Of a stretch of DNA of 45,960 nucleotides, positions 9,031 to 10,716 are shown piece after piece. Each line of letters starts with the position of its first letter. The first letter of the stretch is position 1. Below the pieces are notes generated by a model that saw nothing but the letters and a program-made list of their open reading frames with translations, was not told the DNA's origin and made no database searches. Origin of the DNA: Synechococcales cyanobacterium M55_K2018_004 (lineage in GTDB: Bacteria; Cyanobacteriota; Cyanobacteriia; Elainellales; Elainellaceae); assembly GCA_015295905.1 (NCBI GenBank), contig DVEB01000202.1, positions 1 through 45,960 of the forward strand, written 5' to 3'. Both the position numbers and the translations under genes were made by a program.

Positions 9031-10113
9031 TTATCCTTTACCAAGCTTGGATTGAATCTGGTCAAACACGGCATCATCGGCGAAAAATTTTTCTTGGATC
9101 GTGCTCCATCCACCCAGGTCTTCGACGGTGAACAGAGTCTTGACCGGAGGGAATTGCGTTGCAAAGTCTTGTGCCACTTCTGGCAAAACCGGACGAAATC
9201 CAACTTTGGCAAACTCTGCCTGGGCTGCGGGAGTAAACAGAAATTGGAGAAACGCCTCTGCCACTTCTCGTGTGCCATTTTTATCAACATTGGCATCCAC
9301 AACCGCCACGGGATTATCAATCGATATGTTGGGGTCAGGGACCACGTAGGACAGGTCAATGCCGTTGAGTCCAGCAAGAATCACCTCATTTTCGTAGTTA
9401 AGCAAGACATCCCCCTGGCCTTGCTTAAAGAAGGCATCGGTGGACTCGCGCGCATCGCGGGTAAGCGCAGGGACATTCTTGAACACTTGAGTTGTATAGT
9501 CCATCGCTTGCGCATCGGTGCCGCCTGTCTGGGTAATGGCACCCCACAGCGCCAGAAAATTCCACCGTGCCCCACCAGAGGTTTTAGGGTTGGCGGTAAC
9601 AACTTGCAGGCCAGGTTGGGTCAGGTCTTCCCAGGTGCGGATATTTTGGGGGTTTCCCTTGCGCGTCACCAAGGCAACCACTGATGTGTGGGGGACGGAA
9701 TGGTTGGGGAGTTTCTCTTCCCATCCCTGGTTGATCAGCCCGACTTTTTCCAGCTTCTTGACATCGAGCGCCAGGGCCAGCGCCACGACATCTGCATTCA
9801 GGCCATCCATCACGGCGCGAGTCTGGGCCCCCGACCCACCGTAACTCTCGTAAATAATGACATTCTGGTTGTGTTCCCGCTTCCACTGGTCGGCGAACAT
9901 GGGGATGATTTTTTCGTAGGCGGCACGGGTGACGGCAAAGGAAACCAAGGTCATCTCAATCTCTGGCTGAGGCGGTGAACCCGCTAAAGATGCCTCTCTA
10001 TCGACTCGGCTACAGCCCACCATCAGCAGGGCGATCGCTCCACTCAGCAACACCCCTACTAGGAAGAAACTGAGCAATCGCCCCACCCTGCTAAACCAAA
10101 GCCTTCGAAGCAT
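9031..10113 (-). CDS. sbpA: Sulfate-binding lipoprotein
   Basis: Periplasmic solute-binding protein of the sulfate/thiosulfate ABC transporter, about 360 residues. The N-terminal segment ends in a lipobox (LLMVGC), so it is a lipoprotein. Family motifs YESYGGSGAQTRAVMDG, DVVALALALDV and NPKTSGGARWNFLALWG match SbpA/CysP. ATG 10113 is chosen (GGAGGAG spaced 5 nt upstream). A GTG at 10131 in frame also has GGAGG at good spacing, giving six more residues (MSWRRT), so both starts could be used. It heads the sbpA-cysT-cysW operon. An 11-bp inverted repeat lies just before the ribosome-binding site. Confidence 0.92.
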   Translation of the reverse strand: MLRRLWFSRVGRLLSFFLVGVLLSGAIALLMVGCSRVDREASLAGSPPQPEIEMTLVSFAVTRAAYEKIIPMFADQWKREHNQNVIIYESYGGSGAQTRAVMDGLNADVVALALALDVKKLEKVGLINQGWEEKLPNHSVPHTSVVALVTRKGNPQNIRTWEDLTQPGLQVVTANPKTSGGARWNFLALWGAITQTGGTDAQAMDYTTQVFKNVPALTRDARESTDAFFKQGQGDVLLNYENEVILAGLNGIDLSYVVPDPNISIDNPVAVVDANVDKNGTREVAEAFLQFLFTPAAQAEFAKVGFRPVLPEVAQDFATQFPPVKTLFTVEDLGGWSTIQEKFFADDAVFDQIQSKLGKG

Positions 10114-10144
10114 CGTTCTCCTCCAGGACACAATCCCTCCAAGA

Positions 10145-10176
10145 AAGTCCGGTTTCTCTAGTGTAAAACCGGACTT
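10145..10176. promoter_or_regulatory. Inverted repeat in the leader of the sulfate operon
   Basis: AAGTCCGGTTT (10145-10155) pairs with AAACCGGACTT (10166-10176) around a 10-nt loop, 5-15 nt upstream of the ribosome-binding sites of sbpA. In RNA it would form a stable hairpin at the translation start region. Its core belongs to the AAACCGG-type palindromes frequent in cyanobacteria, so it may be a repeat rather than a regulator. Confidence 0.45.
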
Positions 10177-10376
10177 CTACTGAACAGTCATCTTAACTTA
10201 AAATCAAAAGTCTATCTACGGTTTTTATGTCGGAATAAGGGATTTTATTGAACTTTCGCGATTCTGTCGCTCTGCCTTTACCGAGTATTTACGATGGCTG
10301 CTCCGATAAAACCGGGTGCGATCGCTTGAGTGCCTTGAGCGGTGCTGTTTTGCCAACGTCCACTCGGATACGTTAT

Positions 10377-10499
10377 CACGTCAGTTCTGGTTAAGAGGGT
10401 TTTGGGTCACCGCGCCTAGGGCGGTGACCCAAAACCCTTGCTGTTCTGTGCGCGTCGTGCACAGAACAGCAAGGGTTTCAGCTTATCCCGAATTCACGT
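10377..10499 (-). mobile_element. MITE-like element, full length (123 bp)
   Basis: Ends ACGTCAGTTCTGGTTAAG (left) and ACGTGAATTCGGGATAAG (right, read on the minus strand). It holds two hairpins: 17-bp arms at 10397-10413/10421-10437 and 19-bp arms with one mismatch at 10435-10453/10457-10475. It is flanked by direct repeats GTTAT (10372-10376 and 10500-10504). It lies between the likely -35 and -10 boxes of tRNA-Thr. Confidence 0.85.
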
Positions 10500-10507
10500 G
10501 TTATAAT
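10499..10507 (+). promoter_or_regulatory. Extended -10 box of tRNA-Thr
   Basis: TGTTATAAT: a consensus TATAAT (10502-10507) preceded by TG with one base between, 12 nt before the tRNA 5' end. A TTGCCA at 10350-10355 would sit 18 bp upstream of this -10 box if the inserted element and one target-site copy were removed, so it is probably the original -35. Confidence 0.65.
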
Positions 10508-10519
10508 AGCTTGCTGTGT

Positions 10520-10592
10520 GCTGGTGTAGCTCAGTCGGTAGAGCAGCTGATTTGTAATCAGCCGGTCGCAAGTTCGAATCTTGTCACCAGCT
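10520..10592 (+). tRNA. tRNA-Thr (anticodon TGT)
   Basis: A 73-nt cloverleaf. The acceptor GCTGGTG pairs with CACCAGC (10585-10591), with discriminator base T. D-arm GCTCAGTCGGTAGAGC; anticodon stem GCTGA/TCAGC with loop TTTGTAA, anticodon TGT at 10553-10555 (reads ACA); T-arm with GTTCGAATC. The CCA end is not encoded (CTTG follows). The anticodon assigns threonine. Confidence 0.97.
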
Positions 10593-10716
10593 TGTAGGTC
10601 TGACGCATTCCTCAGGCGAGGGGCTGGTTTAACACATGATTGTTTGATGAGAGATTCCCCCTATTCGCCGCTCATCACAACAACGAAACAATGCCGCCTC
10701 AAGCCAATGGCTTCGA

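Follow-up and report, generated by a model that had tools for sequence, protein, structure and literature searches.

How might the only gene for a particular threonine tRNA go on being transcribed when a transposable element lies between the two boxes of its promoter? The question is raised by the window analysed here, a stretch of 45,960 nucleotides that makes up one whole contig of a draft cyanobacterial genome (5.0 Mb in 362 contigs). In it, a tRNA-Thr gene with the anticodon TGT is found at 10520-10592 on the forward strand; none of the other tRNAs among the 38 read from the draft genome has this anticodon, the remaining two tRNA-Thr genes carrying CGT and GGT. The upstream neighbour, a gene for a sulfate ABC transporter substrate-binding protein (9031-10131, reverse strand), is divergent from the tRNA gene, and therefore the transcription of tRNA-Thr must start within 10132-10519 and needs a promoter of its own; read-through from the upstream gene is ruled out by the same arrangement. 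A second tRNA gene of the contig (45906-45960) is truncated by the contig end.

The putative promoter is divided. Its -35-like box, TTGCCA (10350-10355, forward strand, five of six positions matching), now stands 146 bp from the -10 hexamer TATAAT (10502-10507), which lies 12 nt upstream of tRNA-Thr and is immediately preceded by TGN, the whole stretch 10499-10507 on the forward strand reading TGTTATAAT, a predicted extended -10 promoter element. Two copies of GTTAT on the same strand (10372-10376 and 10500-10504) flank the insert, and the empty site reconstructed by joining 10376 to 10505 presents TTGCCA, a spacer of 18 bp and TATAAT. TTGCCA is the only match of at least 5/6 to TTGACA on the forward strand of 10132-10515, the chance of such a match being about 0.012 at spacers of 16-18 and about 0.02 at spacers of 15-19. 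In TGTTATAAT, the T (10499) belongs to the element as its last base, while the G (10500) is the first base of the right copy of the duplication, of which TAT begins the -10 box. The initial annotation had located TTGCCA, the GTTAT copies, TATAAT and the tRNA gene correctly, with the same 18-bp spacer on joining the flanks, and its claim that the insertion parts the -35-like box from the -10 is borne out by the transposable element lying between both; the motifs behind its further claim, that the duplicated GTTAT regenerates TATAAT and that the terminal T with the adjoining G gives a TG before the -10, are present at their positions. The left flank GATACGTTAT (ACGTTAT, with C at 10371) gives an empty site with CG, not TG, before the -10. 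The supply of a new -35 by the element was ruled out, since the hexamers at spacers of 16-19 (CAGCTT and neighbours) match poorly.

The element between the boxes

The insert, at 10377-10499 on the forward strand, is a copy of a MITE with IS982-type ends. Its left terminal inverted repeat, ACGTCAGTTCTGGTTAAG (10378-10395, forward strand), matches the right end ACGTCAGTTCGGGTTAAG of a 979-bp IS982-like element in another genome (G015), and its right terminal inverted repeat, at 10482-10499, reads ACGTGAATTCGGGATAAG on the reverse strand, the outermost base being the T of the TG. Between them are placed two hairpins on the forward strand, one with 18-bp arms and a 7-nt loop (10396-10438), terminator-like on this strand, and the other with 23-nt arms and a loop of a single nucleotide (10432-10478); the element folds as a stem with these two inner hairpins at -78.3 kcal/mol (z = -10.8), and its 122-123 bp carry no transposase gene. 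Of the 40 best full copies scored across the genome, those other than the window copy are 89-93% identical to it, and the right-end sequence gave 274 + 289 matches with at most three mismatches in this genome against 0 + 3 for the reversed control. Of the 62 copies read with their flanks, 19 have target duplications that agree exactly over 5 bp or more, with 0.5 expected by shuffled pairing. In the other copies, the duplications extend over 6-9 bp, mostly 6-8 bp, and have the form T...A, from which the element proper is probably ACGT...ACGT at 10378-10499 (122 bp); accordingly, the duplication of the window copy may be read as GTTATA/GTTATC with one mismatch, the C at 10377 being perhaps the altered sixth base of the left copy, or as GTTAT if 10377 is part of the element.

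The load of this MITE in the genome is very high, with about 560 end matches, roughly one copy per 10-20 kb, and many of the end matches lie no more than about 120 bp from the end of a contig, so that breaks in the assembly may be due to the repeat. The hairpins vary among the copies (L002-L030) with apparently paired changes (T 10407/A 10427 and T 10447/A 10463), and base pairing thus seems to be kept between the MITE subfamilies. Upstream of tRNA-Gly(GCC) and tRNA-Pro(TGG), other copies end about 60-70 bp short of the gene, outside the apparent promoter boxes (L073, L076).

The same repeat family recurs, at about 84% identity, in a second genome belonging to the taxonomic family, G015, where the 979-bp element encloses a PF13612 transposase domain, matched at 4e-59 but with a listed reading frame of just 170 aa, between the same unequal pair of ends (ACGTGAGTTCGGGATAAG and ACGTCAGTTCGGGTTAAG). 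Members of the IS982 family measure about 1 kb and encode a DDE transposase of their own type, a length with which the 979 bp agree. The inverted repeats of the IS982 family start with AC and have the consensus AC(N)6T(N)5TT, and target duplications of variable length are typical of the family (PMC7335449). Compared with this consensus, ACGTGAATTCGGGATA has the AC, the T at 9 and the T at 15, and A for T at 16. A search for PF13612 gave no match in the window's own genome assembly, and draft assemblies can lose multi-copy insertion sequences; the PF01609 (DDE_Tnp_1) matches of the same genome were rejected as the source of the element, no 1-kb pair of element ends being found around any of them, and the plasmid search for the element gave no match. 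By its ends, the insert is best described as a non-autonomous MITE of IS982 type.

Promoters of tRNA-Thr(UGU) in relatives and of other tRNAs in the same genome

The comparison took in the regions upstream of 95 non-redundant tRNA-Thr(UGU) genes, drawn from the family and from the class (Cyanobacteriia), and 88 of them had a scorable -10 box; the -10 calls were made by a simple rule, identical for the data and for the shuffles, which preserve base composition only. The relatives belong to other genera than that of the window and are not independent, several groups having recent shared ancestry, and all the counts are given without a tree-based correction. TGN directly precedes the -10 in 68 of the 88 scorable relatives (shuffled upstream regions: mean 4.3, maximum 12), the typical forms being TTTGTTATACT and TTTGCTATATT, and a -35 with at least 5/6 matches was found in only six of the 88. 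In the relatives, the -10 mostly stands 9-13 nt ahead of the tRNA, a range that includes the 12 nt of the window. In the window's own genome, 29 of the other tRNA genes received a -10 call, and TGN stands before 14 of them (shuffles: mean 2.1, maximum 7). These counts are in line with the literature, according to which cyanobacterial promoter data contain no strong -35 consensus (PMC3219970), and the extended -10 is typical of highly expressed cyanobacterial genes (PMC3985657).

Thus, of the proposal in the initial annotation that the insertion had rewired the promoter, the rebuilt -10 with its TG holds, but an extended -10 as a newly made architecture was rejected, this being the majority state in the relatives and common before the tRNAs of the same genome. 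By this comparison, the predicted extended -10 is the ancestral and ordinary architecture of the tRNA-Thr(UGU) promoter, not a product of the insertion, and the tRNA-Thr(UGU) promoters across Cyanobacteriia are mostly of the extended -10 kind with no good -35.

The -35 side gave a divided answer. The initial annotation had held that relatives without the element and without TTGCCA at the expected spacing would speak against its proposal: 76 of the 88 have no TTG there, but a spacer of exactly 18 bp is the sole spacing enriched in TTG, with 12 of the 88 relatives, partly groups of close relatives, where the other spacings have 0-6. On these counts, some lineages have a weak putative -35 at 18 bp as a minor feature of the tRNA-Thr(UGU) promoter. 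The perfect hexamer TATAAT was found in 10 of the 20 promoters without TG as compared with 3 of the 68 with TG (Fisher p = 8e-6, uncorrected for relatedness), which suggests an apparent trade-off between TGN and a perfect TATAAT among the tRNA-Thr(UGU) promoters (e.g. L033, L042, L183, L184). A -35 with at least 4/6 matches is present in four of the 20 relatives without TG. CG replaces TG in four of these 20, and three relatives with CG have TATAAT, so that the pairing of CG with TATAAT does occur in nature.

Among the named genomes scanned, only Leptolyngbyaceae cyanobacterium SL_7_1 and filamentous cyanobacterium CCT1 have a relative of the neighbouring transporter protein at more than 60% identity; in neither of them did a tRNA turn up close to the transporter gene, so a syntenic empty site is absent there, and their tRNA-Thr genes, located elsewhere in the genome, have TGN before a -10-like box (L040/L204, L205).

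Readings of the insertion

It is likely that the MITE insertion has been tolerated and that the extended -10 TGTTATAAT beside tRNA-Thr still drives its transcription. According to the mechanism proposed, a non-autonomous IS982-type MITE would have inserted into the promoter of the one tRNA-Thr(UGU) gene, between its -10 and the weak -35-like box, and transcription would continue from the -10 box on the tRNA side, TGTTATAAT, as an extended -10 little dependent on a -35, with the TG supplied by the fixed terminal T of the element and the duplicated G. The insertion would have been tolerated because the promoter part that bears the bulk of the signal was left next to the tRNA. We infer from the sequence that the gene is transcribed from TGTTATAAT as its active promoter, at close to normal output, and that the insertion was kept by selection for that reason; it probably did little harm, rather than creating a new switch. 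However, the reconstructed pre-insertion site has CG, and the promoter was therefore perhaps not an extended -10 immediately before the event.

The same CG is the starting point of a true rewiring, in which the TG had already become CG and the promoter relied on TTGCCA, the 18-bp spacer and TATAAT until the MITE removed the -35 and restored the TG, leaving an extended -10 with its function kept. Such a course of events may be entertained, tentatively, as it agrees with the left flank ACGTTAT, which implies CG preceding the insertion, with the TATAAT of the window, a perfect hexamer that is far more frequent in the relatives without TG, those with CG included, and with the position of TTGCCA at the one spacing enriched in TTG. 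However, the C at 10371 could post-date the insertion, having arisen in the disused left copy, the more so as a further change (C for A at 10377) may be present in the left duplication; the relatives without TG also seldom have a good -35, and, with the ancestral form as its outcome, the event would be a reversion. In this one lineage, a TG lost earlier may have been regained through the insertion, the CG being implied by the left flank.

Transcription from farther upstream or from inside the MITE, with a leader containing the MITE hairpins that is removed by RNase P, appears improbable. A -10-like TAAAAT is present at 10199, and RNase P would yield the correct tRNA 5' end from any leader, but no -35/-10 pair reached the scan threshold on the forward strand of 10130-10700, the first inner hairpin is terminator-like on this strand, the MITE is without a promoter-like -35 at 16-19 bp from TATAAT, and a consensus -10 with TG stands at the usual distance from the gene. 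Draft assemblies are often broken or mis-joined by high-copy repeats, and this genome is in 362 contigs, which might cast the MITE at this place as an artefact of the assembly or of the population; however, this copy sits inside a 46-kb contig, combines variants in a way of its own and has a matching duplication at its two sides, and an artefact is regarded as extremely improbable. Under the preferred reading of a tolerated insertion, the locus would represent a natural test of which promoter parts are needed by a housekeeping tRNA, as an insertion that split off the -35 and kept TGTTATAAT has survived.

Relation to known systems

The window copy resembles the IS982 elements in the ends starting with AC, which fit AC(N)6T(N)5T, and in the target duplications of variable length; it differs from them in the lack of a transposase, in its length of 122-123 bp and in its two strong inner hairpins. 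Nezha (Zhou et al. 2008, as cited in PMC10969869) is likewise a cyanobacterial MITE. With the fusion (hybrid) promoters made by insertion sequences (reviewed in PMC9330008), the locus shares the end of a transposable element beside a native -10 box, whereas in those promoters the element usually contributes a -35 and gives rise to expression or increases it, and here the -35 has been separated and the element gives one base of the TG at a pre-existing promoter. Finally, TGTTATAAT has no difference in sequence from the extended -10 promoters, in which TGN directly precedes the -10 hexamer, and the activity predicted for it here is that of this class.
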